This document shows, piece after piece, positions 1-12,825 of a DNA stretch of 15,691 nucleotides (position 1 is its first letter; every line of letters starts with the position of its first letter). The notes under the pieces are model-generated. The model saw only the letters and a list, made by a program, of their open reading frames with translations, made no database searches and was not told where the DNA came from. The DNA comes from Symbiobacteriaceae bacterium. Lineage in GTDB: Bacteria; Bacillota_E; Symbiobacteriia; Symbiobacteriales; Symbiobacteriaceae. The translations under genes were made by a program, and so were the position numbers. The stretch covers positions 1-15,691 of the forward strand of contig DAHVXO010000013.1 of assembly GCA_027356675.1 (NCBI GenBank). The letters are read 5' to 3'.

Positions 1-2474
1 AGGAGTTTGGGGCAAGATTTTTCGGCAACGATGCTCGGCCGGGAGTGGTGCTGAAGCACCCCCAAAAGTTGAGCGACGTGGCCTACAACAGGCTTAAGGA
101 ATCCTGGAACGAACAGCATCAGGGTTTAAGCAACGCCCACAGGGCGGCCATCCTTGAAGAGGGAATTGACATCAAGGAAATCGGCATCCCTCCGGAGGAC
201 GCACAGTTTCTTCAGACCAGGGAATTCCAACTCGAGGAGATAGCGAGAATCTTTCGGGTGCCTCTTCACCTGGTGGGCGACCTGAAGCATGCTACGTTTT
301 CCAACATTGAACACCAGTCCATCGAGTTCGTTGTGCACACCATCAGACCCTGGTTGGTTCGGTGGGAACAGGCGATCAATGCCCGCCTGTTAGGGGAAAC
401 CGAGCGCCGGACCTATTTCGCGGAGCATTTAGTCGACGGCCTTCTTCGCGGGGACGCCAAGGCGCGGAATGAAGCCCTGGCAATCCAGAGACAGAACGGC
501 ATCATCAACGCCGACGAGTGGCGCGAGATTGAAAACATGAACCCGCAACCAGACGGCCAGGGGAAGGTTTACCTCGTACCCCTCAACATGGTCCCCGCCG
601 ATCAGATTGGGAAAGAGCCGCCGCCAGAACCGCCGCCGGATGAAACCAACGGTCGTCGCGAACATCGGGCGGCTGCCTCTCGCCGCAGGATCGCGAACGC
701 CTATAAGCTAGTGTTCGCCGATGCTGTCTCTCGTATCATCCGACGCGAGGAAGCCGACGTGATGCGGGCGGCCGGCAAGCACCTGGGTAAACGCGATGCG
801 GTAACCTTTGATGCTTGGCTCGAAGAGTTCTATCGCGATCACCGGGAGTTCGTCGGACGGAACATGCTCCCCGTCTACCGGTCTTACGCCGAAGCAATTC
901 AGGCCGAAGCCGCAGACGAAGTCGGGGCGGAGCCCGGCATGACCCCGGAGTTGGAGGAGTTCATCCGGGCTTACCTGGGAGTCTACGTGACCCGGCACGT
1001 TGCGTCCTCTCAAGGGCAGATCCGGGAGATTGTAACCAGGTCTGAATCGGCCGGGGAAGATCCAGTTCCGGCCCTTCAGGAGCGGTTCGACCAGTGGAAG
1101 GAGCGCCGACCTGAGAAAGTCGCCAAACAGGAAACAATCCGGGCGGGAAGCGCAATAGCAAAAGCCGTTTTCCTGGCCGCCGGGGTGACCCGGATTCGCT
1201 GGCAGGCATGGGGAGAAAACTGCCCATATTGTAATAGCCTGGACGGGCGAGTGATCAGCATACACGGGAACTTTGTGCTTGCCGGTGAAGAGTTGAAACC
1301 CGAGGGCGTTGATAAGCCGTTGACCTTCAGCACCAACATCGGGCATCCTCCAGCGCACCAAGGATGTTTAGCGGGGGGCAGCCTTGTATTGTCCCGTGAT
1401 GGGATCACGGGTGCCAGTAAACGGTGGTATGATGGAGATGTTGTCGTCATCGGCACATCCGGTGGTCACAAACTCACCTGCACGCCAAATCACCCGATAC
1501 TCACGTCGAGCGGTTGGATTGCCGCGGGCGCCCTGAACATAGGAGGCGACGTAATCTGCGACGGTAGCGGTAAGCGGGGAAGCGTTTGTAACGGGGATAA
1601 CGAGGATGTTCCAGCCCGCATTGAGGATGTAGCGGAAGCGTTTCTCGGTTCCGGTAAGGCGTTCGCCATGCCAGTGCCAGTATCCGCCGAATACTTCGAT
1701 GGCGACGGGGCAGGTTCCAAGATCGCAGTTATAGGGACCGATTGCCTGCTGATGGATGGTGACTATTCCGCGATCGAAGAGCATGTCGCTAAGTCTGATT
1801 TCGTAAGAAGAGATGCCGATCCCCCGTTCCTCTCGTGTCCTCGCTGCATGACACTGTTCGGTGAAAGTCTTTCGGCGTCCCGTGGCGGCCCTGTGAGCCC
1901 CGGCAGCTTGGGAGCAACGTTCAGAGACGGTCATTTGACTGGCACGGATAAGGCCGGCCTCACTGCAACCTCGGGGATGGATTCCGCTTTCGAGCAGGTG
2001 ACGACGTATAACGCCTCGTCCGACACCAAAACTCTCGGCGATGGCATATTCGGATTTGCCGGCCAAGTAAAGGGAGGCAATTCCCTCGACGGACAAGTTG
2101 ATTCTCTTGGAAGGCGCAATGCCGTTGGCATGCAGGCATCGAGAGATAATTCTTTGTCCGACACCCAGCTCGCGCGCGATATCCTTGACGGTCTGGCCGG
2201 ACCTGTACTTGTCGATCAGGTCGTTAACATTGAACGAACTCCTTTTCATGGCTATGTGTACAACCTCCAGACTCCAAAGGGATTTTATGCCGCTGAGTCC
2301 ATTATAACACATAACTGTGATTGTTCAATGGTCGCGGAATTAGGCGCCCGGGGGCAACCCAGAGCGGGCGAGGAACTACGAAAGACACTTCGGGTTCTGA
2401 TCCGGCAAATAGAGGACGAGGACCACCCGCACGACTGTAAGTGCGGGTTATGTTTTGAGGAAATGGAGGGGTAA
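1..2474 (+). CDS. Portal protein fused to MuF-type head morphogenesis domain, intein-interrupted (5' partial)
   Basis: The reading frame is open from base 3, so the true start lies upstream; the GTG at 45 is only an internal codon and residues below are counted from it. Residues about 1-115 look like the C-terminal half of an HK97-family portal, including the stretches REFQLEEIARIFRVP and ATFSNIEHQSIEF; portals form the dodecameric ring for DNA entry and exit. A Pro-rich hinge (about 195-205) leads to a helical region and then a MuF (PF04233-like) domain with C393-x-x-C396 and the motif HPPAHQGC. An intein (residues 441-757) splits that motif exactly before its Cys; splicing would restore HPPAHQG-CDC. 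The stop TAA is followed 2 nt later by the protease start. Portal-MuF fusions are known in phages. Portal and MuF calls rest on recognised motifs, not on a search. Confidence 0.92.
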   Translation, partial: EFGARFFGNDARPGVVLKHPQKLSDVAYNRLKESWNEQHQGLSNAHRAAILEEGIDIKEIGIPPEDAQFLQTREFQLEEIARIFRVPLHLVGDLKHATFSNIEHQSIEFVVHTIRPWLVRWEQAINARLLGETERRTYFAEHLVDGLLRGDAKARNEALAIQRQNGIINADEWREIENMNPQPDGQGKVYLVPLNMVPADQIGKEPPPEPPPDETNGRREHRAAASRRRIANAYKLVFADAVSRIIRREEADVMRAAGKHLGKRDAVTFDAWLEEFYRDHREFVGRNMLPVYRSYAEAIQAEAADEVGAEPGMTPELEEFIRAYLGVYVTRHVASSQGQIREIVTRSESAGEDPVPALQERFDQWKERRPEKVAKQETIRAGSAIAKAVFLAAGVTRIRWQAWGENCPYCNSLDGRVISIHGNFVLAGEELKPEGVDKPLTFSTNIGHPPAHQGCLAGGSLVLSRDGITGASKRWYDGDVVVIGTSGGHKLTCTPNHPILTSSGWIAAGALNIGGDVICDGSGKRGSVCNGDNEDVPARIEDVAEAFLGSGKAFAMPVPVSAEYFDGDGAGSKIAVIGTDCLLMDGDYSAIEEHVAKSDFVRRDADPPFLSCPRCMTLFGESLSASRGGPVSPGSLGATFRDGHLTGTDKAGLTATSGMDSAFEQVTTYNASSDTKTLGDGIFGFAGQVKGGNSLDGQVDSLGRRNAVGMQASRDNSLSDTQLARDILDGLAGPVLVDQVVNIERTPFHGYVYNLQTPKGFYAAESIITHNCDCSMVAELGARGQPRAGEELRKTLRVLIRQIEDEDHPHDCKCGLCFEEMEG
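1365..2315 (+). mobile_element. Intein (class 1, Cys1 ... His-Asn/Cys+1), 317 residues, inside the MuF domain
   Basis: The intein starts with Cys441 (tgt at 1365) in block A (CLAGGSLVLSRDG). Block B carries T480-x-x-H483 in TCTPNHPIL. The C-terminal block F/G reads GYVYNLQTPKGFYAAES followed by IITHN, ending His756-Asn757, with Cys758 as the first C-extein residue. These are the residues expected for standard protein splicing: N-S shift at Cys1, transesterification to Cys+1, Asn cyclisation. The Hint fold occupies roughly residues 441-508 and 735-757. The roughly 225 residues between show no LAGLIDADG or HNH motif on this strand and read like a shadow sequence. The reason is an endonuclease gene on the opposite strand over the same bases. 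The inserted DNA is 951 bp, a multiple of three. Confidence 0.95.
1368..2249 (-). CDS. Antisense Vsr/DUF559-like homing endonuclease nested in the intein
   Basis: This 293-residue protein is encoded on the strand opposite the intein, codon-aligned with it. Two tandem helix-turn-helix modules occupy residues about 8-45 (QTVKDIARELGVGQRIISR) and 52-90 (YAIAESFGVGRGVIRRHL). A basic linker follows, then a Vsr-fold/DUF559-like nuclease core at about 147-225: E150 in SSYEIRL, D176 in GPYNCD, E185 in PVAIEVFGG, H192/H194 in YWHWHG, then RFRYILNAGWNILVIPV. This resembles the EDxHD homing endonuclease family, whose members cut DNA to drive insertion of their element. The start is ATG 2247-2249, with GGAGGT 13 nt upstream and an upstream promoter. 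The frame also opens from an ATG at 2312, but that has no ribosome site. The TAA stop (1368-1370) is the complement of intein codon 2. The last 40 or so residues are opposite the Hint N-terminal blocks and may be passenger sequence. Confidence 0.85.
   Translation of the reverse strand: MKRSSFNVNDLIDKYRSGQTVKDIARELGVGQRIISRCLHANGIAPSKRINLSVEGIASLYLAGKSEYAIAESFGVGRGVIRRHLLESGIHPRGCSEAGLIRASQMTVSERCSQAAGAHRAATGRRKTFTEQCHAARTREERGIGISSYEIRLSDMLFDRGIVTIHQQAIGPYNCDLGTCPVAIEVFGGYWHWHGERLTGTEKRFRYILNAGWNILVIPVTNASPLTATVADYVASYVQGARGNPTARREYRVIWRAGEFVTTGCADDDNISIIPPFTGTRDPITGQYKAAPR
2301..2328 (-). promoter_or_regulatory. Sigma70-type promoter of the antisense endonuclease gene, spanning the intein-extein junction
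   Basis: On the minus strand the bases read TTGAAC (2328-2323), a 16-nt spacer, then TATAAT (2306-2301). The -10 is preceded by TG one base upstream, giving the extended -10 motif TGTTATAAT. Transcription would start near 2294, giving a leader of about 45 nt that holds GGAGGT at 2268-2263 before the ATG at 2249. The splice junction (2315/2316) lies in the spacer: the -10 is in intein DNA and the -35 in C-extein codons. Function is inferred from consensus match and position. Confidence 0.75.
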
Positions 2475-2476
2475 AC

Positions 2477-3571
2477 ATGGACCTCAGAAAGGCGATGCCG
2501 GTACATCACACCCCGACGATGGACGAGAAGTGGGATGCTGGCGCTAACGTCAAGCGCATTCCGGACGATGCTGGGGCCAAAGTCTTAAAGCAGATGTATG
2601 CCTGGATGGACCCGGAAGGAGATCCCGACAAGAAGAGTAGCTATAAAATGCCTCACCACATGGTCGATGACTCCGGAAACGTCGGGGCCGCGAACATGAA
2701 GGCGTGTTCGTCGGCTATGGGTGCCCTTAACGGTGCCCGGGGCGGGGTTGACATTCCAGAAGAGGACCGGAAGGCCGTCTGGAAGCATCTTGCGGCCCAC
2801 ATGATGGACGGCGACATGGAGCCTCCAGAGATGATGAATTCGTTCTCTGGGGGGATTGAGCGCCGGGCGTTCCCATTCATGGAGATCCGGGTGGACAGCG
2901 GAGAGCAGCCCAAGATCGTCGGGCATGCCGCCGTGTTCGACAAACTGAGCGTCAACCTCGGAGGGTTCCGGGAGAAGATCGCTCCCGGAGCCTTTGCGAA
3001 TGCCATCAAAAAGAACGACATCAGAGCCTTGTGGAACCATGACCCGAATTTCGTGCTCGGTCGGAATAAGTCCAAGACGCTGACGCTGGCTGAGGACGAA
3101 AAGGGTCTGGCCATTGAGATTGTTCCTCCTGATGCTCAATGGGCCAAGGATCTCATGGAGACTATGCGTCGGGGCGATGTCGACCAGATGTCATTTGGAT
3201 TTCGCGTGATCAAGGACAACTGGGAGTTCGTCGAGGGAAAGGACAGTATCCGCACCCTGCAGGAAGTGGAACTGTGCGACGTGTCCCCCGTTACCTTTCC
3301 GGCCTATCCGCAGACGGATGTGAAAGTTAGGTCAATTTTGGCCGGTGCTGGTCTTGACTTCGACGGCCTTTCGGCCGTGATGATCCGGGCGCAGCGCGGT
3401 TTGCCGGTGCAACCGGCCGACCGCGACCTGATAAATGCGTCAATCCAAGTCCTTCGGAGCTATCTCCCCGAGGTGAGGCAGGAGCCCTCCTCGGAGGACG
3501 CTGCGAAGCAGGTGCAGGCGCGCCTGGCTATGCGCAGACGGCGATTGGAGATAGCTGAAAGGGCGGTCTGA
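2477..3571 (+). CDS. Prohead maturation protease (HK97 / S78 family) with extra N-terminal domain
   Basis: The 364-residue protein has three parts. Residues 1-115 form a conserved-looking N-terminal domain (AWMDPEGDP, YKMPHHMVDD, MGALNGARGG, HLAAHM). I recall it as a common fusion partner of phage proteases, but its role is not known to me. Residues about 119-285 are the serine protease: catalytic His188 in LWNHDPNFVLGR and Ser239 in DQMSFGF, with the ending VSPVTFPAYPQTD. Residues about 300-364 are a charged helical tail that may act in scaffolding or be cleaved. The enzyme cleaves the capsid delta-domain and scaffold inside the prohead. The start ATG follows the portal stop by 2 nt, with GGAGGGG just upstream. 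The order portal, protease, capsid is standard for HK97-like phages. Confidence 0.93.
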   Translation: MDLRKAMPVHHTPTMDEKWDAGANVKRIPDDAGAKVLKQMYAWMDPEGDPDKKSSYKMPHHMVDDSGNVGAANMKACSSAMGALNGARGGVDIPEEDRKAVWKHLAAHMMDGDMEPPEMMNSFSGGIERRAFPFMEIRVDSGEQPKIVGHAAVFDKLSVNLGGFREKIAPGAFANAIKKNDIRALWNHDPNFVLGRNKSKTLTLAEDEKGLAIEIVPPDAQWAKDLMETMRRGDVDQMSFGFRVIKDNWEFVEGKDSIRTLQEVELCDVSPVTFPAYPQTDVKVRSILAGAGLDFDGLSAVMIRAQRGLPVQPADRDLINASIQVLRSYLPEVRQEPSSEDAAKQVQARLAMRRRRLEIAERAV

Positions 3572-3590
3572 AAAAAGGGGCACATAAAGG

Positions 3591-3618
3591 AGCCGTCCTC
3601 GACGGGGGCGGTTTTCTT
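3591..3618 (+). terminator. Hairpin with T-run between protease and capsid genes
   Basis: A 10-bp imperfect stem (3591-3600 with 3604-3613, three G-U pairs, loop GAC) is followed by TTTTCTT. It looks like a weak rho-independent terminator or attenuator just 5' of the capsid gene. It lies upstream of the capsid Shine-Dalgarno at 3631-3639. Confidence 0.5.
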
Positions 3619-3646
3619 GTCGCCGAAAAGAAGGAGGACGAAAACA

Positions 3647-4945
3647 GTGGACATCAACGAACTGCGGCGCGCCAGGGCCGCGATTATCAAGCAGGCCCGG
3701 GATCTGGTGGACAAGGCGACCACCGAAAAGCGCGACCTGACCGACGAGGAAAACACCGGGTACGAATGTCTTCTGGCCGAAGCTGACAAGATGCTTCGGA
3801 CCATCGAGCGCGAGGAGCAACTTCAGGGTCTGGAGCGTGGTCTTGGCCAGCCTCAGCAGGAGCCCATTCGCCCCGATCCCAGTGATCCAGCTCCGGGACA
3901 ACAGCGCGTCTGGAAGAGCTTTGGTGAGCAGTTGCGCGCCGTGGTCGAGGCCGCGAGGCCCGGCGGGACGATTGATTCCCGCCTGACCACCCGCGCCGCG
4001 TCTGGGGCTTCAGAGTCCGTGCCTTCTGACGGCGGCTTCCTGGTCCAGGAAGACTTCGTCTCCGAACTGCTTAAGCGGACCTACGAAACCGGCGTTCTGG
4101 CTTCCAGATGCCGGAAGATCCCCATCAGTCCCAACGCTACCGGTCTGAAAATCAACGCAGTTGACGAGACCAGTCGGGTTAACGGCTCTCGTTGGGGCGG
4201 GATCCAGGCGTACTGGACCAATGAAGCTGATACGCCCACCGCGACCAAGCCGAAGTTCCGTCAGATGAACCTCATTTTGGAGAAGCTGACGGGTTTGTGT
4301 TACGCCACCGACGAGCTGCTCCAGGACGCCGCAGCCCTCGAATCCGTACTCACGCAGGGGTTTGCTGAGGAGTTCGGTTTCAAGATCGACGACGCTCTCA
4401 TCAGCGGTACCGGATCGGGACAACCCTTGGGCATTCTCAATAGTCCCGCACTGGTGACGGTCGCCAAGGAGACCGGCCAGTCGGCCGCTACCGTTGTAGC
4501 TGAAAACATCATCAACATGCGGGCAAGGCTTTGGGCGCGCTCCAGGCCCAACTCGGTCTGGCTCATCAACCAGGATGTGGAGAAACAACTCCACCAGCTC
4601 TCCCTCCCGGTTGGCACCGGCGGCATTCCCGTATATTTACCGGCGAATGGGCTCTCGGGGCTCCCGTACGACACCCTCTACGGCCGGCCCGTCATCCCGA
4701 TTGAGCAGTGCTCGACTCTGGGAACCGTTGGTGACATCATCCTTGCCGATTTCAGCCAGTACCTGCTGATCGACAAGGGCGCCATGCAGTCCGCCGCGTC
4801 CATCCACGTGCGGTTCCTCTACGACGAGTCCGTCTTCCGGTTCATCTACCGCGTCGATGGGGAGCCCATCTGGAACAAACCCTTGACCCCGTACAAGGGC
4901 ACCAATACGCTTTCGCCCTTTGTGGCGCTTGCGACCCGTGCGTAA
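3647..4945 (+). CDS. Major capsid protein, HK97 fold
   Basis: This 432-residue protein fits HK97-type capsid proteins. Residues about 1-70 are a charged, coiled-coil-like delta domain (ELRRARAAIIKQARDLVDKA ... LLAEADKMLRTIEREEQ) that acts as built-in scaffold and would be removed by the upstream protease. A linker rich in Pro and Gln follows. The capsid domain then starts near SVPSDGGFLVQEDFVSELL, with typical stretches KLTGLCYATDELLQDA, ISGTGSGQPLGIL and YRVDGEPIWNKPLTPYKGT. GTG at 3647 is chosen because AAGGAGGAC lies 8 nt upstream. An in-frame TTG at 3617 would add 10 residues but overlaps the hairpin T-run and lacks a ribosome site. The gene is flanked by hairpins on both sides, consistent with separately tuned high expression. 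Confidence 0.95.
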   Translation: MDINELRRARAAIIKQARDLVDKATTEKRDLTDEENTGYECLLAEADKMLRTIEREEQLQGLERGLGQPQQEPIRPDPSDPAPGQQRVWKSFGEQLRAVVEAARPGGTIDSRLTTRAASGASESVPSDGGFLVQEDFVSELLKRTYETGVLASRCRKIPISPNATGLKINAVDETSRVNGSRWGGIQAYWTNEADTPTATKPKFRQMNLILEKLTGLCYATDELLQDAAALESVLTQGFAEEFGFKIDDALISGTGSGQPLGILNSPALVTVAKETGQSAATVVAENIINMRARLWARSRPNSVWLINQDVEKQLHQLSLPVGTGGIPVYLPANGLSGLPYDTLYGRPVIPIEQCSTLGTVGDIILADFSQYLLIDKGAMQSAASIHVRFLYDESVFRFIYRVDGEPIWNKPLTPYKGTNTLSPFVALATRA

Positions 4946-4963
4946 GGATGATTCGGAGAGATA

Positions 4964-4994
4964 GGGCCGCTCAATCGTGAGCGGCCCTTCTCTC
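4964..4994 (+). terminator. Strong hairpin after the capsid gene
   Basis: A perfect 10-bp stem (4964-4973 with 4978-4987, GGGCCGCTCA / TGAGCGGCCC, loop ATCG) is followed by the pyrimidine tract TTCTCTC. It is placed 18 nt after the capsid stop. It may be a partial terminator or a 3' stabiliser of capsid mRNA. Downstream genes have no obvious promoter of their own, so some read-through is expected. Confidence 0.7.
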
Positions 4995-5026
4995 TGGGAC
5001 TCACTTGAGAAAGGGGAACAGTGAAA

Positions 5027-5506
5027 ATGCCTAAAGGTTGTGTAATCGCCGAGTGCTGCCATGTGGTCAACGTCATTCCCCCGATTGACATCACCGGAGG
5101 CGTGACCGGCGACATCTTCAGCATGGCTGAGTACCATCACGCAACAATCATCGTTCAGGTCGGCGTGAGCGCCGCTGCGTTCACCAAGATCATCGTCAAC
5201 CAGTGCACCGACTTCGCCGGTACCGGGGCGGCGGCTATTGCCTACTCCATCTACAAGGCGGAGACCTCGGCCGGGGACACTCTGGGAGCCAGGACTGCGG
5301 TCGCGGCCGCCGGGCTCACTCCATCCGCCAACGACAACATCTTCTACGTGATCGAGATCGACGCCAGCGAACTGAGCGATGGCTACAACTTCATCCAGTT
5401 GAGCCTGACCAACGGCGTCAACAGTGTCATCGCGTCTGCCGTGGCTATCTTGAGCGGTACCCGGTACGCCCAGAACGCCACGCCTACACCCACCGCCATC
5501 GCGTAA
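5027..5506 (+). CDS. Small probable virion (decoration-like) protein
   Basis: The product is 159 residues from ATG 5027; AAAGGGGA lies about 9 nt upstream. A GTG at 5021 would add two residues but sits too close to that site. The sequence is rich in Ala, Ile, Val and Thr with alternating hydrophobics, suggesting an all-beta fold; no signal peptide or membrane segment is seen. N-terminal Cys residues (CVIAECC) are notable. The segment SANDNIFYVIEIDASEL and then YNFIQLSLTN resembles in layout the ANDN-Y...YIRV stretch inserted in the connector at 6761. Its place directly after the capsid gene, between hairpins, suggests a head decoration or head fibre protein made in high amounts. I do not recognise a named family; the role is inferred from position. 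Confidence 0.75.
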   Translation: MPKGCVIAECCHVVNVIPPIDITGGVTGDIFSMAEYHHATIIVQVGVSAAAFTKIIVNQCTDFAGTGAAAIAYSIYKAETSAGDTLGARTAVAAAGLTPSANDNIFYVIEIDASELSDGYNFIQLSLTNGVNSVIASAVAILSGTRYAQNATPTPTAIA

Positions 5507-5513
5507 TTTGACG

Positions 5514-5535
5514 GGGCCGCTCTTCGGGGCGGCCC
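5514..5535 (+). terminator. Hairpin with UUCG tetraloop
   Basis: A 9-bp stem (5514-5522 with 5527-5535, one G-U pair) closes a C(TTCG)G tetraloop, one of the most stable RNA loops. Its 5' arm GGGCCGCTC is identical to that of the hairpin at 4964. There is no T-run right after it, so it may act as an RNA-stability or processing element more than as a terminator. Confidence 0.6.
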
Positions 5536-5588
5536 AACCAACTTTGCCCGCAAGGGTGGCCCGAAAAGGGTCGGAGGAGGTCTAACAA

Positions 5589-6116
5589 ATGCCTGTTACC
5601 AGCGTGAAGAGCAAATGGGTTTCCGGGGATCTGGTCTTCTACGATAAGACTACCGGAACCACGATTGTAACCATCAAGTCAGATGGAACCGTGAAGGTGG
5701 AGACGGCCGACAAGCTCGACCTAGCCGGAGTGAAGGTGCCCGCCACACTCGTGGTCACCGAAACCCTTCAAAGCGGTGCGGCGACTGCGGCCAATTATGG
5801 GGTGTTTTTCGTCGCCCCGTTTGCATGCGAAGTTGTTTCGGTGCGCGAGGTCCATACTGCGGCTGGCACTGATGCTGGCGCCGTCACTCTCGATGTCGAA
5901 AAACTGACCGGTACTCAGGCCCTCGATGCTGGCGTGTCAGTCCTGGCCGCTACTGTCAACCTCAAGGGTGCAGCGAACACCGTGGTGAACCCGGCTCTGA
6001 CCGCGACGACAGCGAACAAGCAACTGGCTGTCGGTGACCGCCTCGCACTCAAAGATGCAGGCGTTCTGACGGCCGTGGCCGGAGTTGCAGTGGTGGTTGA
6101 ACTGAAGAAGATCTAA
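5589..6116 (+). CDS. Probable virion protein (head decoration/fibre-like), unknown family
   Basis: The protein is 175 residues, starting at ATG 5589 with GGAGGAGGT about 9 nt upstream, an excellent ribosome site. The N-terminus (SGDLVFYDKTTGTTIVTIKSDGTVKV) looks like a short beta motif often seen at the start of phage surface proteins. The rest (LVVTETLQSGAATAANYGVFF ... LDVEKLTGTQALDAGVSVLAA) is Ala/Val/Thr-rich and beta-like. No signal peptide, Cys motif or catalytic signature is seen. It lies in the capsid neighbourhood between two hairpins, which suggests a structural product. I do not recognise a specific function. Confidence 0.75.
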   Translation: MPVTSVKSKWVSGDLVFYDKTTGTTIVTIKSDGTVKVETADKLDLAGVKVPATLVVTETLQSGAATAANYGVFFVAPFACEVVSVREVHTAAGTDAGAVTLDVEKLTGTQALDAGVSVLAATVNLKGAANTVVNPALTATTANKQLAVGDRLALKDAGVLTAVAGVAVVVELKKI

Positions 6117-6125
6117 TGACGGGAG

Positions 6126-6157
6126 GTGTGGGGAGTAGCCCTCCCCACACTGTTTTA
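6126..6157 (+). terminator. Terminator-like hairpin
   Basis: A perfect 10-bp stem (6126-6135 with 6141-6150, GTGTGGGGAG / CTCCCCACAC, loop TAGCC) is followed by TGTTTTAT. This is the best rho-independent terminator match in the window and lies 9 nt after the preceding stop. The next gene begins only about 20 nt later, so termination is probably partial. Confidence 0.75.
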
Positions 6158-6175
6158 TAGCGGGAGGCTGAGATT

Positions 6176-6541
6176 ATGGCTGGGACAGTAACTATTGCCG
6201 AAGAGACCTACGGGACCGTCAGAAAGGTCAAGTTTGCCTGGACTTCAGATGCCGCCGGCGCCGCGGACGGGATCACGACTAAAGCCTATTCGGGCGCAGT
6301 CGAACGGCTGGTTACGGTCCCGGGTACCGCTGGAGACCAGCCGACCGACCTCTATGATGTCGTTGTCAATGACGAAGACGCGACGGATGTACTAATGGGT
6401 GCCGGGGCGAATCGTAGCAATGTGACCACCCAACAGGTGTTGGCCTCATCGTTGGGTGTCGTGGCCAACGACAAACTTACCTTGGCGGTGACGAATGCCG
6501 GTGCGACCAAAAAGGGCACCGTCTATGTTTACATCCGTTAG
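6176..6541 (+). CDS. Small probable virion protein, unknown
   Basis: The product is 121 residues, from ATG 6176 preceded by GCGGGAGGCTGAG. The sequence is beta-rich, with many Thr, Val and Ala (GTVRKVKFAWTSDAAGAADG, LASSLGVVANDKLTLAVTNAG, GTVYVYIR). No membrane segment, Cys pair or enzyme motif is visible. Its composition resembles the two preceding genes, so it may belong to the same group of capsid-associated proteins. It is followed after 9 nt by the next small gene. Function is not recognised; a virion role is inferred from context. Confidence 0.7.
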   Translation: MAGTVTIAEETYGTVRKVKFAWTSDAAGAADGITTKAYSGAVERLVTVPGTAGDQPTDLYDVVVNDEDATDVLMGAGANRSNVTTQQVLASSLGVVANDKLTLAVTNAGATKKGTVYVYIR

Positions 6542-6550
6542 GGGGCGATA

Positions 6551-6757
6551 GTGGTGCAAATTAGGATGCTCAACAAAGGCCCCAACGAAAACTACGAGCC
6601 CGGTTCCGTGATCCTGGTCGACGAGGTCCGGGCCGCCGTACTGATTTCAGGCGGCCACGCTGAACCCCTCAATGAGTTGGAGACCGCTACCGCTATGTCC
6701 CCCGAAAACGCGATGATCAAGCGCCCACCGCCCAGGAAGGCCGGGAAGAAGGGATAA
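6551..6757 (+). CDS. Small hypothetical protein of the head region
   Basis: This 68-residue protein has several possible starts: GTG 6551, GTG 6554 or ATG 6566. GTG 6551 or 6554 is preferred because GGGGGCGATA lies just upstream. The N-terminal half (YEPGSVILVDEVRAAVLISGG) looks like a small folded module in which a residue group recognises a boundary, as in short phage head proteins with an E-P-G-x-x-x-x-x turn. The C-terminus is basic and Pro-rich (KRPPPRKAGKKG), which suits nucleic acid or capsid interior contact. It is followed 3 nt later by the connector gene. The function is unknown. Confidence 0.65.
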   Translation: MVQIRMLNKGPNENYEPGSVILVDEVRAAVLISGGHAEPLNELETATAMSPENAMIKRPPPRKAGKKG

Positions 6758-6760
6758 CAA

Positions 6761-7771
6761 ATGGCCCTCACCTTGATAACCGCGCCCACATCGGAACCAT
6801 TGACGCTGGCCGAGGTGAAGGCGCATCTCCGGATCGATTCGACCAGCTTCGCCGACGACATTTCCTCGGTCCAGTCCATCGCCCCCGGATCTCATGCCAT
6901 TGCCGCAGCATACAGCCTCAAGGGTAAGGGGGTCAACATCCTGGGCTACTCTGCCGTCGTCGTTCTCGAAGCAGGAACTAACGGCGCCGGGGGAACGGTG
7001 GACGTAAAGATCCAGGAGTCGGACACCGACGTTGATGCCGATTACGCGGACTGGGCCGGGGGCGCCTTCACGCAAGTTACCGAAGCCAACGACAATGCAA
7101 CGTATGAGAAAGCCTACACCGGAACGAAGCAGTACATCCGGGTGGTCGCGACCGTGGCCGTGGCCTCCTGTGAATTTGGCGTCTCCGTCCTCAAAGATGC
7201 TCCAACAAGCGCGGAAGACGACATGCTGAACGCTTTGATTACCGCAACCCGCGAATATGCTGAAAGCTATCAGCGGCGGGTATACATCACTCAAACGTGG
7301 GAATTGACTTTGGACCGCTGGCCCGGTCGGGGGACCAACAACTCCGGTTATGTCTACAACCGCCACCACGTGGCCTATGTGCCCGCCATCAGTTACATCA
7401 CCGTCCCTCTCCCGCCGCTCCAGAGTGTGACCTCGATCAAATACTACGGGACGGATGATATGGAATACACCATGGACGCGGCGGATTACTTCGTGGATAC
7501 CAAGAACGCGCCGGGGCGGATTGCGCTGGCATATAGCAAGGTTTGGCCCACAACCACACTGAGACCGGTGAATGGGATTGTGGTCCGATTTGTTGCCGGA
7601 TATGGGGCGGCTTCGGCTGTGCCTAAAAGGGTGAAGCAAGCCATGCTGATGCATATCGCCTGGCTCTACGAACAGCGCGAGGCGGTCATAGTCAGCAACA
7701 GAACCGTCGTGAAAGAGGCGCCCCTGGCCGTGGATGCGTTACTCTGGCAGGACCGGGTGTTCAACTTCTGA
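6761..7771 (+). CDS. Head-tail connector, gp6-like, with inserted beta domain
   Basis: The 336-residue product starts at ATG 6761 behind GAAGGGAT. The N-terminal signature SEPLTLAEVKAHLRID (11-26) and the region from about 152 on (DDMLNALITATREYAESYQRR, TQTWELTLDRWPG, PPLQSVTSIKYYGTDD, GRIALAYSKVWP, VRFVAGYG, LAVDALLWQDRVF) are those of phage gp6-type connectors, which form the ring below the portal. Residues about 34-148 break this family pattern. They form a separate Ser/Thr/Asp-rich, probably beta-sandwich domain (LGYSAVVVLEAGTNGAGG, KIQESDTDVDADY, YTGTKQYIRVVATV). Without the insert the length would be about 220, normal for the family. I recall similar inserts or stand-alone copies in other phages but cannot verify this here. 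Confidence 0.88.
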   Translation: MALTLITAPTSEPLTLAEVKAHLRIDSTSFADDISSVQSIAPGSHAIAAAYSLKGKGVNILGYSAVVVLEAGTNGAGGTVDVKIQESDTDVDADYADWAGGAFTQVTEANDNATYEKAYTGTKQYIRVVATVAVASCEFGVSVLKDAPTSAEDDMLNALITATREYAESYQRRVYITQTWELTLDRWPGRGTNNSGYVYNRHHVAYVPAISYITVPLPPLQSVTSIKYYGTDDMEYTMDAADYFVDTKNAPGRIALAYSKVWPTTTLRPVNGIVVRFVAGYGAASAVPKRVKQAMLMHIAWLYEQREAVIVSNRTVVKEAPLAVDALLWQDRVFNF

Positions 7772-7780
7772 GGTGATGTC

Positions 7781-8461
7781 ATGCGATGTCGTCACTGTGG
7801 GAATGAGTGTGAAAGAACCGGCCGAAATCAAAAACTCTGTCCAGACTGCAGACGCGAAATTGGGAAGGATCTGAAACGGACTTGCCGACAGAAGAACCGC
7901 GAAAGATACAACAAGACTAGCAAGGAAAGAAGGCGATCGATAAGAGCGGCTAAACGGAGGCCGTTCTTTTGTTCGAATTGCGGGATCGGCACCACCAAGA
8001 ACGGCCCACGGCAGAAATACTGTGGAAACTGCGCCGAGAGGTTAAAAAAGGCGCGTAGCAAGTATTATTATCAAACAGAGATTCGAATAGGTGAAAGGAT
8101 GGTGTGCGAACTTTGCGGCCAGGAATGTATTAGAAGATCTGCCATTCAACGAACATGTCCGGATTGCCGTCCGAAACTTGCCGTGTTTGCTGAAAGAAGA
8201 AGGAATCTAAGAAAGCGCGGAATCGGCGGATCACATACGGTCTCCGATTTCCGCGCTCTTTGCGAAAAATACAACTGGCGTTGCGCGTATTGCGGTAAGA
8301 ATCTTACAGCAAAAACGGTTACCAAGGATCACGTGATACCAATTTCGCGCGGCGGGACCGATGTAATAGGCAATATCGTTCCGGCCTGCTTATCATGCAA
8401 CGCGGCCAAACAAGCAAGGACAGGAGAAGAGTTTTTGGGGACAAGGGTGGCGGGGACATGA
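7781..8461 (+). CDS. HNH endonuclease with three N-terminal zinc-ribbon modules (probable homing endonuclease)
   Basis: The 226-residue protein has three Cys-rich modules: C3/C6/C20/C23, C64/C67/C81/C84 and C109/C112/C126/C129. A basic helical stretch follows, then a C-terminal HNH nuclease: C168-x-x-C171, D183-H184, N198, C203-x-x-C206-N207 (TKDHVIPISRGGTDVIGNIV). The Cys pairs bind structural zinc; His184 is the expected catalytic base. It sits between two structural genes where no nuclease is needed for assembly. It uses the ribosome site GAGGTGA right after the connector stop and overlaps the next gene by ATGA. Its codons look more A-rich (many AAA, AGA, AAT) than its neighbours, which suggests a separate origin. 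A free-standing homing endonuclease is the best reading; a role in cos cleavage is less likely at this site. Confidence 0.9.
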   Translation: MRCRHCGNECERTGRNQKLCPDCRREIGKDLKRTCRQKNRERYNKTSKERRRSIRAAKRRPFFCSNCGIGTTKNGPRQKYCGNCAERLKKARSKYYYQTEIRIGERMVCELCGQECIRRSAIQRTCPDCRPKLAVFAERRRNLRKRGIGGSHTVSDFRALCEKYNWRCAYCGKNLTAKTVTKDHVIPISRGGTDVIGNIVPACLSCNAAKQARTGEEFLGTRVAGT

Positions 8462-8781
8462 GGATCGGAGAACTCAGACAGCGTATCACCTTACAACAAA
8501 AAACAGTGACGCGTGATTCTTATGGCGCTGAGGTTATTTCCTGGACCGATGTTGCCACAGTGTATGCCTTCGTTCAACCTCTCCAGGGGAGAGAATTCTT
8601 CGAATCTCAACGAATCAACGCCGAGATCACCGCCAAGATTACAATTCGATTCCGGGCAGGGATCAGGCCGTTCGACCGGATCAAGTATGGCGACCGTTTG
8701 TTCGACATCCAGTCCGTGATCAATCCAGATGAACGCAGGCGGGAGCTCCAGCTGATGGTCAAAGAGGTGATCGTCGGATGA
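8458..8781 (+). CDS. Head closure / head-tail adaptor protein (SPP1 gp16-like)
   Basis: The product is 107 residues. The start ATG 8458 overlaps the HNH stop as ATGA; a longer in-frame opening from 8395 encodes only HNH shadow sequence. The sequence follows the head-tail joining family: MRIGELRQRITLQQKT at the N-terminus, then YGAEVISWTDVATVYAFVQPL, GREFFESQRINAEI, IRFRAGIRPFDRIKYGDRLF, ending in VKEVIVG. Members bind under the connector ring and close the DNA-filled head. The gene itself ends in an ATGA overlap with the next one, so translation of this run is coupled. The ribosome site here (GGTGGCGGGGAC) is weak, consistent with coupling to the HNH gene. Confidence 0.88.
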   Translation: MRIGELRQRITLQQKTVTRDSYGAEVISWTDVATVYAFVQPLQGREFFESQRINAEITAKITIRFRAGIRPFDRIKYGDRLFDIQSVINPDERRRELQLMVKEVIVG

Positions 8782-9194
8782 TCACGGTGAGTCTCAGCGG
8801 TGACCGGGAGCTTTATCAGAAACTCAGCGCCATGTCCAACGTGGCGGCCTCGGACGTGCTGGAAAAGGGTGTTGTGGCCGGGGCGACTATCATACAAAAA
8901 GGCGCTCAGGCACGTGTCCGGCGGCGGAGCGGTAAATTGGCCGGTTACATCAAGGTCGCGGTCGGCGAGAAGGGTCGGGATCGGGCAGTCGCCGGGGTGA
9001 GAATTAGCAGGAAGGGCTTCTATTGGAAGTTCATCGAGTTCGGGCATGTGGTGAAGCGGAAAAGGAAGGGCGCCGTAGTCGGACATGCACCGGCCTATCC
9101 CTTTCTCCGGCCGGCCTTCGATGAAGCGAAGGACCGGGTTAAGGATGTGGTAGCGGACACCATCCGGAACGCGATACTGGGGGCGGCGAGATGA
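8778..9194 (+). CDS. HK97 gp10-like tail component
   Basis: The product is 138 residues, starting at ATG 8778 in an ATGA overlap. The N-terminus MITVSLSGDRELYQKLSAM leads into a helix, then a basic loop (GAQARVRRRSGKLAGYIKV). The C-terminal half carries WKFIEFGHVVKRKRKG and APAYPFLRPAFDEAKDRV. The pattern of R-S-G-x-L, then the W/E-F-G motif, then P-A-x-P-F-L-R-P-A is typical for the HK97 gp10 family. This family is placed between head closure and tail terminator genes and assigned to the neck or tail junction. Gene order here matches that exactly. The function is by family and order. Confidence 0.9.
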   Translation: MITVSLSGDRELYQKLSAMSNVAASDVLEKGVVAGATIIQKGAQARVRRRSGKLAGYIKVAVGEKGRDRAVAGVRISRKGFYWKFIEFGHVVKRKRKGAVVGHAPAYPFLRPAFDEAKDRVKDVVADTIRNAILGAAR

Positions 9195-9607
9195 CGTTAG
9201 AGGAAGGCTTGTACTCCTATCTTTCGTCGACCGCGGCCTTGACTGCCCTCGTGGGAAATCGAATCTACCCGGTCGTACTGCCCCCGAACGTCGTCTACCC
9301 GGCCGTCACCTACCAGCGAATCAGCGGGCCTCGGGTGCACACCATGGGCAACGACCCAGGTTTGGCTTATCCGCGGATTCAAATATCTTGCTGGTACCGG
9401 GACATCAGTGATCCGCAGAAGGGCTACGGTCAGGTGAAGGCTGTCGCGGAGCAGATTCGATTGGCCCTCCAGGACCAGAAAAATACCACTTGGGGCGGAT
9501 CGGTCACAGTCCGGGCTGTATTGTTCGATGGCGATACCGACCTCTACGATTTCGAAACCCAGGTGCACCAGGTGGCCCTCGATTTCATTATTTGGTATAC
9601 GGAGTGA
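9191..9607 (+). CDS. Tail terminator / tail completion protein (DUF3168-like)
   Basis: The product is 138 residues. ATG 9191 overlaps the previous stop as ATGA. Family-like segments are GLYSYLSSTAALTALVGNRI, PPNVVYPAVTYQRIS, PRIQISCWYRDISDPQKGY, VKAVAEQIRLALQ and the final VHQVALDFIIWYTE. Proteins of this type cap the tail tube at the head-proximal end and set the join with the neck. The position right before the tail-tube-like genes supports this, with only a small zinc-ribbon gene in between. Length is normal for the family. Confidence 0.9.
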   Translation: MTLEEGLYSYLSSTAALTALVGNRIYPVVLPPNVVYPAVTYQRISGPRVHTMGNDPGLAYPRIQISCWYRDISDPQKGYGQVKAVAEQIRLALQDQKNTTWGGSVTVRAVLFDGDTDLYDFETQVHQVALDFIIWYTE

Positions 9608-9798
9608 TGGTTATGAAAGCGGAAACTATCAGGGGCATGATCCTGTCCGCCAAGTCGATCCTGGATGCGGCCGTGGAACTGATGGAAGAGGAAGAGGAAT
9701 GCCGTCACCCTCCCGACCGCCGCAAGGATCTATCCACCATGGGGCATGCCCGCTGGCAATGTCTCGACTGCGGCTATGTTGAGGAGGTGAGCGCGTGA
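9607..9798 (+). CDS. Small zinc-ribbon protein
   Basis: The product has 63 residues from ATG 9607 (TGATG overlap with the terminator gene) or 61 from ATG 9613, which is better spaced (9 nt) from GGAG at 9600-9603. An N-terminal helix (AETIRGMILSAKSILDAAVE) is followed by an acidic run and a Cys/His cluster, C-R-H ... GHARWQCLDCGY, which looks like a C-x-H / C-x-x-C zinc-binding ribbon. It ends in a GTGA overlap with the tail tube-like gene, so it is translated within the tail operon. A longer open frame upstream (from 9490) is only shadow of the terminator gene. The function is unknown. Confidence 0.75.
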   Translation: MVMKAETIRGMILSAKSILDAAVELMEEEEECRHPPDRRKDLSTMGHARWQCLDCGYVEEVSA

Positions 9799-10520
9799 GC
9801 CTGCTCGTCTGGAAGAATTCGAAGCTCTATTTGGGCGGGTACGACCTGTCGGGGGACATGAATCAGATGTCCCTGAAGTATGAGGCCGACGCTCTGGATA
9901 CAACGGTGTTCGGCCAGTCAACGAAACGTCGTCTGGCCGGGCTACTGGACATCGTCGCAGACCACAAAGGGTTATGGCAGGCCGGGACAAACCTCGTTGA
10001 GGATACCCTATGGAGCAAGTTCGCCGTGGCGAACGAGGTCATGACGGTATTCCCCGAAACCGGCGCCGCAGGGGAAATTGGGTTCTCATTCAAATCCCTC
10101 GAATCATCCTACTCTCCCGGAGCCAAGGTCGGGGAGGTGCTGGCCTTCGATGTTTCGGCCAAGGGGGTGGGGACGCTTATCCGTGCTACCGCCCTGGAGA
10201 ATGGAGTTAAATCTGCGACAGCGAGCGGCACGGCGCGAAACCTCGGGGCTGTCTCGGCGACACAAAAACTCTATGCGGTCATGCATGTCCTGGCCAAGTC
10301 TGGGACAACCCCAACCTTGGATGTCGCGATCCAGTCCGACGATGCCCAGGCGTTCACGACGCCTATAAACCGCATCACGTTTGCCCAGGCGACCGACATC
10401 GGGGCGCAGTGGGCCACGCCGGTGAATGGTGCTATAACGGACACTTGGTGGAGGGCGTCTTGGACCATCGGCGGTACCGGCCCCAGTTTTACGGTTGTCA
10501 TTGCGATAGCGATTCAATGA
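9795..10520 (+). CDS. Tail-tube-like protein 1 (long paralogue)
   Basis: The product is 241 residues from GTG 9795, which overlaps the previous stop as GTGA, with GAGGTGAG upstream. The N-terminal part (SLLVWKNSKLYLGGYDLSGD, KYEADALDTTVFGQSTKRRLAGLLD) aligns by eye with the gene at 10545, so the two are paralogues. It extends over a further C-terminal beta-rich region (KLYAVMHVLAKSGTTPTLDV ... WWRASWTIGGTGPSFTVVIA) that the second copy lacks. Position between tail terminator and chaperone genes is that of the major tail protein. I infer that it builds or decorates the tail tube; which paralogue is the main tube subunit cannot be decided here. Confidence 0.82.
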   Translation: MSLLVWKNSKLYLGGYDLSGDMNQMSLKYEADALDTTVFGQSTKRRLAGLLDIVADHKGLWQAGTNLVEDTLWSKFAVANEVMTVFPETGAAGEIGFSFKSLESSYSPGAKVGEVLAFDVSAKGVGTLIRATALENGVKSATASGTARNLGAVSATQKLYAVMHVLAKSGTTPTLDVAIQSDDAQAFTTPINRITFAQATDIGAQWATPVNGAITDTWWRASWTIGGTGPSFTVVIAIAIQ

Positions 10521-10544
10521 TGAATTCGAAGGAGGCGAAATGAA

Positions 10545-10955
10545 GTGGCATTGCTTGTCTTCAAGGACGCGTCGGTCGTGGTTAACGCGGTCGACCTCAG
10601 CGACCACGTTCGGAGCGTCGCAATCAAGTACGAAGCGGACACGCCAGAGTCCACCACCATGGGCGCGACCACCAAAACGCGAATCCCGGGACTCCTGGAT
10701 TGGAGCATTGACGTGGAATTCGCACAGGACTACGCAGCCGCGAAGGTGGACGCTACCCTGTTCAGCCTGGTTGGGGCGGCGGCGTTCACAATCACCGTGA
10801 AGCCCACTAGCGCAGCGGTGAGCGCCACTAACCCGAGCTTCAGCGGATCGGCGCTCTTGCAGAACTACGAACCTGTGTCGGGTAAGGTCGGCGACCTGGG
10901 GACTGCAAAGGCGTCGTTCAAGGCGGCTGGCGTTCTGACCAGAGCTACGGTCTAA
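10545..10955 (+). CDS. Tail-tube-like protein 2 (short paralogue)
   Basis: The product is 136 residues, from GTG 10545 with GGAGG (10531-10535) 9 nt upstream. An ATG at 10540 lies in another frame and opens only a shadow frame. The start ALLVFKDASVVVNAVDLSD, then IKYEADTPESTTMGATTKTR and IPGLLDWSIDVEF, matches the first part of the gene at 9795 residue group by residue group. The C-terminus (SFSGSALLQNYEPVSGKVGD, AKASFKAAGVLTRATV) is typical of small tail tube proteins. At 136 residues it is closer than its neighbour to a minimal tube subunit. A strong AAGGAGG follows for the chaperone gene. Confidence 0.85.
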   Translation: MALLVFKDASVVVNAVDLSDHVRSVAIKYEADTPESTTMGATTKTRIPGLLDWSIDVEFAQDYAAAKVDATLFSLVGAAAFTITVKPTSAAVSATNPSFSGSALLQNYEPVSGKVGDLGTAKASFKAAGVLTRATV

Positions 10956-10967
10956 GGAGGTTAGTCC

Positions 10968-11315
10968 ATGTCTCTTCGTGACAAGATCCTGGCCATCAAG
11001 GACATCCAGGAAGAGTTGGTCGAGATCCCCGAATGGAATTGCAAGGTCCTGGTCCGGGGCCTCACCGGCAGACAGCGGGCGATTTTCCTCCAGAACAGCA
11101 TCGACCCCAAGGGCAAACTGGACATGCAGAAGGCATATCCGGATCTGGTGATCCTCTCCGCCCGTGACCCCGAAACCGGCGAACCGATATTCGGGGCTGG
11201 CGATGCCGACGCCGTGATCGAGAAGTCCGGGGCTGCCCTGGAACGAATCGCACAAGCAACCATGCGACTATCCGGCCTCGGGCCTGACACAGTGGAGAAG
11301 GCGGGAAAAAACTAA
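10968..11315 (+). CDS. Tail assembly chaperone, 0-frame product (lambda gpG-like)
   Basis: The product is 115 residues, ATG 10968, with AAGGAGGT 10 nt upstream. The protein (SLRDKILAIKDIQEELVEIP, CKVLVRGLTGRQRAIFLQN, YPDLVILSARDPETGEPIFG, ERIAQATMRLSGLG) has the pattern of tail chaperones that lie directly before the tape measure region. The frame ends GGA AAA AAC TAA, a slippery heptamer with the stop immediately after it. Most ribosomes would give this short form; a fraction would shift by -1 into the extension at 11312-11467. Both forms are expected to bind the tape measure protein and recruit tube subunits, as known for lambda gpG and gpGT. Confidence 0.9.
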   Translation: MSLRDKILAIKDIQEELVEIPEWNCKVLVRGLTGRQRAIFLQNSIDPKGKLDMQKAYPDLVILSARDPETGEPIFGAGDADAVIEKSGAALERIAQATMRLSGLGPDTVEKAGKN

Positions 11316-11369
11316 AGGAGCACCCCGAGCGCCTCTTGTACTTCCGATTGGCCGAGACGTTCGGGGTGC
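11306..11369 (+). promoter_or_regulatory. Programmed -1 ribosomal frameshift signal
   Basis: The slippery heptamer A AAA AAC (11306-11312) is in the correct phase for simultaneous slippage. After a 7-nt spacer, bases 11320-11331 pair with 11358-11369 (GCACCCCGAGCG / CGTTCGGGGTGC, one G-U) over a 26-nt loop. Slippery site, spacer and downstream stem match the known layout of -1 frameshift signals. Confidence 0.88.
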
Positions 11370-11467
11370 CCATTTCCGAAGTGCTGGACAGGGTTTCGTC
11401 TGCAGAAATCACTGAATGGATGGCGTATTTCAAAATGCAAGGAGAAGAAGCGGAAAGGGAAAGGTGA
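11312..11467 (+). CDS. Tail assembly chaperone, -1 frame extension (lambda gpT-like)
   Basis: The -1 frame continues from CTA at 11312 for 51 residues to TGA at 11465-11467: LKEHPERLLYFRLAETFGVP, then ISEVLDRVSSAEITEWMAYF and an acidic end. The E-W-M-A-Y-F motif and the preceding AExxGxP-like stretch are typical of the second chaperone part in siphoviruses. It has no start codon or ribosome site of its own near the beginning, so it is expected only as a fusion of about 166 residues with the upstream product. The stop is followed 6 nt later by the next gene. Confidence 0.88.
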   Translation, partial: LKEHPERLLYFRLAETFGVPISEVLDRVSSAEITEWMAYFKMQGEEAERER

Positions 11468-11473
11468 GGACAA

Positions 11474-11698
11474 ATGTCTGGCGTAATGACCTTCAAAGGT
11501 ACCAGGGCCCCGAAATCGATCCTGATGCCGGAGGGTTACCGGCCCACCGGCGTCATGGCAGGCGGGAGCTCTGCCAGGTTAGCCATAGCGGATATCGAGA
11601 ACGTCGATGGAGCTGACTTCATGATTCGGGGCGACCGTCTGGAGAACCTGACCGGCAAGGCGGATGTTACTGTTTTCCTTCGCGAAGTGTCTTTCTGA
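11474..11698 (+). CDS. Small hypothetical protein before the tape measure region
   Basis: The product is 74 residues from ATG 11474, with AAAGGTGAGGAC just upstream. The sequence has a Gly/Ala-rich middle (TGVMAGGSSARLAIADIENV) and a beta-like end (DRLENLTGKADVTVFLREVS). No known motif is seen. It lies directly behind the chaperone pair in the tail operon, so a tail assembly role is possible but not shown. The last 32 bases are also covered by the 3' end of a possible small gene on the opposite strand. Confidence 0.7.
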   Translation: MSGVMTFKGTRAPKSILMPEGYRPTGVMAGGSSARLAIADIENVDGADFMIRGDRLENLTGKADVTVFLREVSF

Positions 11699-11855
11699 GT
11701 TCTGACAGGACACAGGCCAAGAAGCGGTGCAGGCCGACCTCTGGAGCACCTTCCGTGCCGCCGAAAGTAGCCTTCATGCTGTCTTTGGCCCTATCGAGAA
11801 CGCCAAGCGCCCACCAATCATCTTGAGACAGCTTTTCTGGGTCAATGTCGTTCAG
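11667..11855 (-). CDS. Possible small minus-strand gene with CTG start
   Basis: On the minus strand a frame of 62 residues runs to TAA at 11667-11669. Its sequence looks protein-like: N-D-I-D-P-E-K-L-S-Q-D-D-W-W-A-L-G-V-L-D-R, then KDSMKATFGG, and LHRFLACVLSELRKTLREG at the end, with amphipathic helices. No ATG, GTG or TTG lies between the upstream in-frame stop and this region. The best start is CTG 11853-11855, with GGGAGG about 8 nt upstream. The next ATG would cut the protein to 36 residues. The opposite + frame (11727-11951) is codon-aligned and probably its shadow. It may belong to the same minus-strand cassette as the membrane gene. A pseudogene is also possible. Confidence 0.4.
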   Translation of the reverse strand: MNDIDPEKLSQDDWWALGVLDRAKDSMKATFGGTEGAPEVGLHRFLACVLSELRKTLREGKQ

Positions 11856-12006
11856 TTGGTTTCCCTCCCTTCCTATGTCCCCACCTCAAGGGACATCTTT
11901 CGTCGGGGAGGGAGGGAATCCTTTCCGGAGCTTGAGAAAGCGAAGAAATAGCCGCAAAAGCGGGACAACTCAATAGGGATAGCTTCTTTCAAAGTACAGG
12001 CGGAAG

Positions 12007-12037
12007 AGAGGCCCGAAGGCTAATCCTCCGGGCCTCT
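12007..12037 (-). terminator. Terminator hairpin of the minus-strand membrane gene
   Basis: A 13-bp stem with one G-U pair (12007-12019 with 12025-12037, outer arms AGAGGCCCG / CGGGCCTCT, loop of 5 nt) begins 5 nt after the stop codon of the minus-strand gene. No clear T-run follows on either strand, but the stem is strong and well placed to insulate the cassette from the + strand tail operon. Confidence 0.6.
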
Positions 12038-12042
12038 GACGC

Positions 12043-12774: not shown

Positions 12775-12825
12775 GACTCATACCTCCTTGGTAATTGCTA
12801 AATCTCAAAAAACATTCTCTACGAA

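Follow-up and report, generated by a model that had tools for sequence, protein, structure and literature searches.

Can a single stretch of DNA encode a protein-splicing element on one strand and, on the other, the homing enzyme that would spread it? This question is raised by a phage head gene of the portal-MuF type at the start of a 15,691-nt stretch from a Symbiobacteriaceae bacterium (GenBank assembly GCA_027356675.1, contig DAHVXO010000013.1, positions 1 to 15,691 of the forward strand), the whole of which is called the window below. An initial annotation of this DNA had proposed that the gene carries an intein whose homing nuclease is encoded on the opposite strand, the middle part of the intein being the shadow of the nuclease. 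Our analysis makes it very probable that the element is an intein with an opposite-strand nuclease gene in exact codon register, and that the nuclease is likely a homing endonuclease that would copy the intein into empty head genes. In the sequences compared, a large family shares the two open, conserved frames, and alleles without the insert exist; the folds of the intein and the nuclease are predicted from models.

An intein with a predicted nuclease gene on its opposite strand

The two coding units and their parts are as follows.

1365..2315, plus strand: intein, 317 codons, from Cys1 to the terminal His-Asn (Pfam Intein_splicing and predicted fold)
1371..2249, with the stop TAA at 1368-1370, minus strand: nuclease gene, 293 codons, ATG at 2249-2247, wholly inside the intein
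1368..1370, minus strand: nuclease stop TAA, the complement of intein codon 2 (Leu TTA)
2127..2228, minus strand: first helix-turn-helix (HTH) module, residues 8-41
1989..2090, minus strand: second HTH module, residues 54-87 (model; Pfam HTH_38 2.4e-5, below cut-off)
1521..1811, minus strand: predicted Vsr-fold (EDxHD-type) catalytic domain, residues 147-243, with E150, D176, E185 and H192

The plus strand carries a complete intein, as had been claimed. Its motifs are Cys1 (1365-1367), block B TPNHP, block F VYNL and block G ITHN, followed by Cys+1 at 2316. Pfam Intein_splicing covers intein residues 14-317 (E=8.3e-9) at 0.1 bit above the cut-off, and the score drops below the cut-off when the whole portal-MuF open reading frame (ORF) is scanned. 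C1, N42, H43 and N317 are kept in 73 of 73 aligned inteins, and H316 in 66. An AlphaFold2 model built from these 73 inteins gave ten-residue means of the predicted local distance difference test (pLDDT) of 92-98 for residues 1-60 and 94-97 for residues 281-317, with a further short confident stretch at residues 81-100 (86-93). The pLDDT was below 50 in residues 187-259 and about 30 at 211-240, and much of the stretch that shadows the nuclease is predicted to be disordered. Foldseek matched the model to splicing domains, the Mtu RecA intein first, with no row under E=0.001. Pfam matches to the plus reading of the window intein were limited to Intein_splicing and a weak PT-HINT hit, and no endonuclease domain was seen there.

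The coordinates of the minus-strand gene (2249-1368) confirmed that it lies inside the intein in exact register, with base 1 of either codon opposite base 3 of the other, and the proposed overlap of its stop with intein codon 2 was confirmed in the sequence. The AlphaFold2 model of its product (pLDDT 93.2, predicted template modeling score 0.74) contains two HTH modules and a Vsr fold; its neighbors were the homing endonuclease I-Bth0305I, first by Foldseek, and Vsr, best by Z. The two HTH modules of the initial annotation thus hold: they fall under the Pfam cut-offs in the window, yet are clear in the model and matched in many relatives. Profile searches of the window minus protein with Pfam, NCBIfam and PHROGs gave HTH-type matches and no nuclease-domain family, and a PHROGs match named HNH endonuclease aligns with the HTH half. 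Among the relatives, PF18741 was found in 28 of 40; the nuclease call for the window is made because of these matches and the predicted fold. We found 121 homologues of the nuclease. In the 118 aligned proteins, E150, D176, E185 and H192 are kept in 116-118, so that four of the five core residues named at the outset are conserved, while the fifth, H194, lies outside the conserved columns.

Some sources list the minus ORF as 'very-short-patch-repair endonuclease' or 'transposase-like protein'. One relative (L127:2988-4371) has a long N-terminal part that by eye resembles extra HTH repeats, and the homologues P0005, P0011 and P0060 exceed 390 residues. The number of HTH modules seems to vary across the family.

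Family survey and open frames

How widespread is this arrangement? By tblastn, 127 phage records matched the nuclease, 19 of them over 80% or more of its length, and 133 phage records matched the intein; phages of Salmonella, E. coli, Pseudomonas, Klebsiella, Vibrio and Gordonia are among those hit. The best 80 of 545 relatives were taken from a scan of viral contigs, a scan of genome contigs added 29 further loci from many phyla, and a plasmid search gave one record with a relative. Across the nuclease, the plus frame in exact register is open for 277-1322 codons in 142 of 143 loci (window included), whereas the other two antisense registers are open for at most 233 codons and mostly far fewer, which excludes chance.

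The 143 loci were reduced to 120 at 90% identity. Intein C-terminal ends were found by pattern in 117 of these, and 113 inteins were delimited; L127, which has a normal C-terminal block, and L064 were not. Codon tests used 110 inteins (L078, L093 and L045 were dropped for misplaced ends) and wobble tests 108 (L080 and L049 were also dropped). The intein of L142 (Escherichia phage BEU35; 665-1558, minus strand) sits at the MuF site STTC...NCRARDG, unlike most members, and forms the longest branch of a quick tree.

None of the 113 delimited inteins has a stop in the plus reading. The initial annotation had suggested looking for an absence of TTA, CTA and TCA codons, and in the minus reading (codon 33 onward, 108 inteins) they account for 0 of 3963 Leu and Ser codons, where about 612 were expected from wobble composition. 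The nuclease therefore bears, by synonymous change, the codon cost of keeping the head protein readable. Family members as low as 40% GC retain both open frames. The antisense phase that allows all opposing stops, read as TTA, CTA and TCA (Leu, Leu and Ser), to be avoided synonymously is exact register, and this is likely why the Vsr-type members use it.

These data also bear on the idea that the insert is removed at the RNA level, as an intron or by bypassing, so that the plus middle is never translated and the dual coding is only apparent. Group I introns are known to carry antisense homing genes (PMC9548176). An Rfam scan of the window at gathering scores, however, gave no family match and so no catalytic intron RNA; the splicing residues Cys1, Asn42, His43 and the last Asn are invariant and the predicted ends are HINT-like; and the plus frame is open in all 113 inteins, which an RNA intron would not need. 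Removal as an RNA intron was rejected on these grounds, and the RNA-level explanation as a whole is very improbable.

Which strand is constrained where

Given two open frames, which of them does selection see? In exact register, base 1 of the plus codon is the wobble base of the minus codon and base 3 is the plus wobble. We compared changes at these positions (+1 and +3) in 31 disjoint pairs of 58-90% DNA identity. The regions discussed are the following.

1365..1547, both strands: N-terminal splicing blocks A/B (plus) and C-terminal part of the nuclease (minus), doubly constrained by near-equal +1/+3 changes
1548..2123, plus strand: shadow stretch of the intein, open and constrained mainly via the minus strand (31 of 31 pairs; low pLDDT)

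In the middle there were 2747 changes at +1 and 1805 at +3, with an excess at +1 in 31 of 31 pairs. The C-terminal blocks had 226 at +1 and 408 at +3 (+3 excess in 27 pairs, 4 ties), and the first HTH region was balanced, with 215 and 216 over the 31 pairs. The N-terminal blocks had 508 and 589 (pairs 18 to 11, 2 ties; binomial p=0.016), and their +1/+3 balance differed from that of the C-terminal blocks (Fisher p=1.7e-5). In more diverged pairs the N-terminal blocks leaned further to the plus strand (ratio 0.75-0.92), less than the C-terminal blocks did (0.56-0.74). These counts show that the middle is a nuclease gene with an open shadow, that the C-terminal blocks are kept as the splicing protein, and that the N-terminal blocks serve as both. 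The view of a fully dual-coded intein thus narrows: both strands appear to be under protein-level constraint only in the N-terminal blocks (1365-1547), the middle is kept mainly for the minus strand, and the C-terminal blocks are kept for the plus strand with minus-strand signals in them. That the middle is the shadow of a homing nuclease on the opposite strand is supported at the level of sequence and predicted fold.

Could the minus ORF be an unexpressed mirror of the intein, held open by plus-strand codon bias, with a spurious likeness to nucleases? The exact antisense register of GC-rich genes is prone to long shadow ORFs, and the two frames are in part mirror images of each other within the N-terminal blocks. 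Yet the changes in the middle favor the minus wobble base in every pair, the confident model belongs to the minus protein while plus residues 187-259 score poorly, and both frames stay open in the low-GC members noted above. Loci with a broken minus gene bear on the same point.

Probable decay and re-use of the antisense slot

Such loci were sought among inteins sampled by the plus strand only: a scan with the first 65 intein residues gave 263 loci, of which the best 80 were taken without de-duplication and with overlap with the first set. The C-terminal end was found in 75. Of these, 72 keep the minus strand open over a stretch of at least 241 codons. The case named at the outset as one that would speak against dual coding, a conserved plus insertion with a broken minus frame, was thus seen in 3 of 75 loci. 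Start places in these three were judged by eye. L222 (176 codons) has six stops inside the minus gene and no nuclease by tblastn. L221 (188 codons) has one stop after the likely start; its core is kept and its HTH part is gone. L196 (350 codons) has six stops inside the minus Vsr-type gene and a plus frame that is still open. An HNH endonuclease ORF lies in another antisense register of the L196 intein (L196:2862-3416, minus strand, within the intein at 2501-3550, plus strand; Pfam HNH 4e-8, over the cut-off).

The minus stops in L196 and L222 beside an open plus frame show that plus-strand constraint alone does not keep the minus frame open. Together with the 31 of 31 middle pairs, the folds and the low-GC members, this led us to reject a pure shadow ORF, which is now hardly conceivable. 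The three broken genes fit decay of the nuclease in a homing cycle, and the pattern in L196 suggests that the nuclease decayed and that the antisense slot was then invaded anew.

Putative expression signals in the codons of the splicing motifs

If the nuclease is a gene of its own, where are its expression signals? Candidates in the window lie in and next to the splicing motifs.

2323..2328, minus strand: -35-like TTGAAC, 16 nt from the -10 box, in codons of the C-extein
2301..2306, minus strand: TATAAT -10 box with TGn before it, the complement of the block G Ile-Ile codons ATT ATA
2264..2268, minus strand: Shine-Dalgarno-like GGAGG, the complement of the block F Asn-Leu-Gln codons (sequence)

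The arrangement TTGAAC-16-TATAAT with TGn has 10 of 12 matches, and 0.7 such sites are expected by chance in the stretch. The spacing from GGAGG to ATG is 14 nt, which is long.

Codon choice at these places was counted in the 110 inteins and compared with the extein flanks. On the minus strand, the block G Ile/Val-Ile codons give TATAAT in 26 and TACAAT in 21 of the 110. At block G position -4, Ile is ATA in 36/51 (flanks 118/575) and Val is GTA in 26/40 (flanks 113/893); at position -5, Ile is ATT in 59/83 (flanks 178/575). The block F Leu is CTC in 69/102, against 193/918 in the flanks. A ribosome site read from block F is GAGG or GGAGG in 56/110 and AAGG in 17 more, and none of GAGG, GGAGG, AAGG or GAG occurs there in 23/110. 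The His whose CAT codon would give the ATG start lies directly before VYNL in 74 inteins, two codons earlier in 20, at both places in 2 and at neither in 14; at one of the two it is thus present in 96/110, and its codon is CAT in 62/76 and 22/22, respectively, against 144/342 in the flanks.

The stop is likewise placed in a splicing motif. With Cys1 assigned by motif alone, Leu2 is TTA or CTA in 68 of 73 inteins, whereas these two codons make up 41 of the 337 Leu codons of the N-extein flanks. The recount was made because an earlier Cys1 rule, which gave 69/71, leaned on the minus stop; Cys1 is the same under both rules in 107/111, and the other tests kept the first assignment for the remaining four. 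Control codons that carry no minus-strand signal were near evenly split: the block G His is CAT in 41/92, as in the flanks, and the terminal Asn is AAT in 45/110. A -10 box (5/6 or better), a ribosome site and an ATG occur all together in 40/110. Kinship among the inteins makes p-values of the codon tests too small, so the comparison with the silent control codons is the more reliable evidence. These results place a putative -10 box, ribosome-binding site, start and stop of the nuclease in codon choices of the splicing motifs; that they work as expression signals is a prediction.

The usual -10 site is degraded in a sub-clade with SYYIANGIASHN-like ends (L041, L044, L045, L049, L050, L055, L059, L101). 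By eye, its members have a TATGAT-like element plus AAGGA with an ATG further inside, and their promoter has likely relocated.

Empty alleles and a free-standing relative

Does the element come and go? A scan with the joined exteins of the window found seven loci of 43-47% identity, none of which has an insert at this site; five were read directly, and two were judged by a continuous match. In Jerseyvirus and its kin, the intein-bearing gene matches 436 records, of which 58 hold at least 80% of it. Among the 60 matches listed for this group, 25 are in two pieces that cover 54-57% of the gene at 85-90% identity and lack the 816-nt intein; they span 1026-1046 nt, which is the gene minus the intein.

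A Thermoleophilia metagenome-assembled genome (L113) has a free-standing nuclease gene (3644-4690, minus strand), convergent with a MuF gene (2965-3660, plus strand) that it overlaps by 17 bp. The MuF site, SHPQ-CRCAMAP, is uninterrupted. Intein motif patterns gave no match in any frame of this locus, and the only match in a Pfam intein search of its genome is weak, under the cut-off and on a different contig. A free-standing nuclease beside an uninterrupted MuF gene suggests that the target is likely MuF. In a quick tree with an arbitrary root, the L113 nuclease falls inside a supported group with intein-borne nucleases (Shimodaira-Hasegawa-like approximate likelihood ratio test 97), and an escape from an intein is more likely than an ancestral state.

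The antisense protein might instead be real and expressed but a rider, that is, a Vsr-like repair or defense nuclease or an HTH-type regulator acting on the head operon. HTH modules do dominate the weak family matches, and Vsr is the best structural match by Z. A feature of the window copy also counts for a rider: it has Arg at position 197, where 110 of the 118 aligned proteins have the otherwise near-invariant His. Against a rider, the first Foldseek neighbor is a homing endonuclease; the element is present or absent at otherwise similar alleles and occurs in genomes of many phyla; there is decay to mini-inteins; a free-standing copy lies beside an uninterrupted MuF gene; and an HNH endonuclease ORF occupies the antisense slot in L196. 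A rider is unlikely on balance.

For the homing endonuclease that we favor, the following cycle is proposed. The plus product would splice out of the MuF protein, and the minus gene would have a promoter of its own and be transcribed independently of the late head operon. The minus enzyme would cut intein-free MuF genes at the motif HPxC|RC, and repair of the cut gene would copy the element in.

Host head gene and neighborhood

The window contains a tailed-phage structural region, which also includes connector and minor tail genes.

3-2474, plus strand: portal-MuF fusion ORF
3..1364, plus strand: N-extein, a portal protein fused to a MuF-type head morphogenesis region (Pfam and NCBIfam)
2316..2474, plus strand: C-extein, starting with Cys+1
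2477-3571: S78 prohead protease
3617-4945: capsid protein

The portal part of the N-extein matches Pfam Phage_portal (PF04860, E=2.6e-64) and NCBIfam portal_HK97 (1.8e-45), and phrog_15127, a head protein, matches the whole portal-MuF ORF (5.1e-35). The spliced product would read HPPAHQG-CDCSMV. By blastn, the first 5 kb of the window gave short matches to phages, with a portal or hypothetical gene among the matches listed. A free-standing HNH endonuclease gene (7781-8461, plus strand; Pfam HNH_5 1.6e-13) adjoins a head-tail connector gene and is possibly a second mobile gene. Within the late region, a 243-codon ORF with hydrophobic stretches (12043-12774, minus strand) matched no Pfam family at E 0.001.

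Relation to known systems

How does this element compare with known ones? With homing inteins that carry an in-frame endonuclease, such as Mtu RecA (PI-MtuI) and PI-PfuI, it shares Cys1, blocks B, F and G, HINT-like predicted ends, a site in a conserved gene and empty alleles. It differs in that its enzyme lies on the opposite strand, has its own putative signals and is encoded partly by the base pairs of the splicing blocks. EDxHD-type enzymes have been linked to phage inteins. Protein Data Bank records describe I-Bth0305I both as a homing endonuclease and as a 'mobile intron protein'. It is encoded in an intron. Compared by fold with it and other EDxHD homing endonucleases, the enzyme described here has HTH modules before the core and a gene that is the reverse of an intein. 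In split inteins ('fractured genes') the homing gene lies between two separate gene halves, whereas here the nuclease is on the reverse of one continuous intein.

Two published systems come close in other ways. The ShiLan-type insertion (PMC11855218) is a phage insert that is open in the host frame and yields an HNH nuclease in another frame, a likeness to the present element. In that account the HNH reading starts at a GTG 18 bp inside the insert, in the third frame, the host-frame reading of one insert (Pacc40) is predicted to be disordered, and there is no splicing domain, so that splicing was deemed unlikely. Here a splicing domain is present and the nuclease is on the opposite strand, theirs being taken as on the same strand. 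I-DsqI (PMC9548176) is a homing enzyme shown to be active and encoded antisense to the host gene in a nuclear group I intron. The antisense coding is alike, but the carrier there is a self-splicing RNA, so that its sense strand need be neither open nor coding.

We rated the element as a variant of the homing intein, since it is expected to work like one, though it departs from the criterion of an in-frame nuclease. It seems fairly likely to us that antisense homing inteins form a separate class of mobile element, in which one DNA stretch gives a splicing protein and a homing enzyme and the transcription unit of the enzyme (promoter, ribosome-binding site, start and stop) lies in synonymous codons of the splicing motifs.

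Significance

Among 21 phage regions viewed, one was unannotated and none of the other 20 had the antisense nuclease labeled. The annotation of E. coli phage Snoke labels the intein, and one other record lists small hypothetical ORFs in the corresponding stretch. Our search of the open-licence PubMed Central literature turned up no paper describing an intein with an antisense nuclease. Because gene callers report one strand, they can miss antisense nucleases or miscall the head gene.

A long, conserved overlap of opposite-strand proteins in exact register is hard to prove, and the more than 100 non-redundant members allow direct tests. The family lets one study how two proteins and a promoter share bases. 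Inteins gain a new way of carrying a nuclease without loading the splicing domain, and the element may account for unnoticed mobility of head genes among common phages. If the proposal is true, homing would be switchable apart from the late head gene, and the antisense slot could be retaken by unrelated nucleases, as the HNH ORF in L196 suggests.

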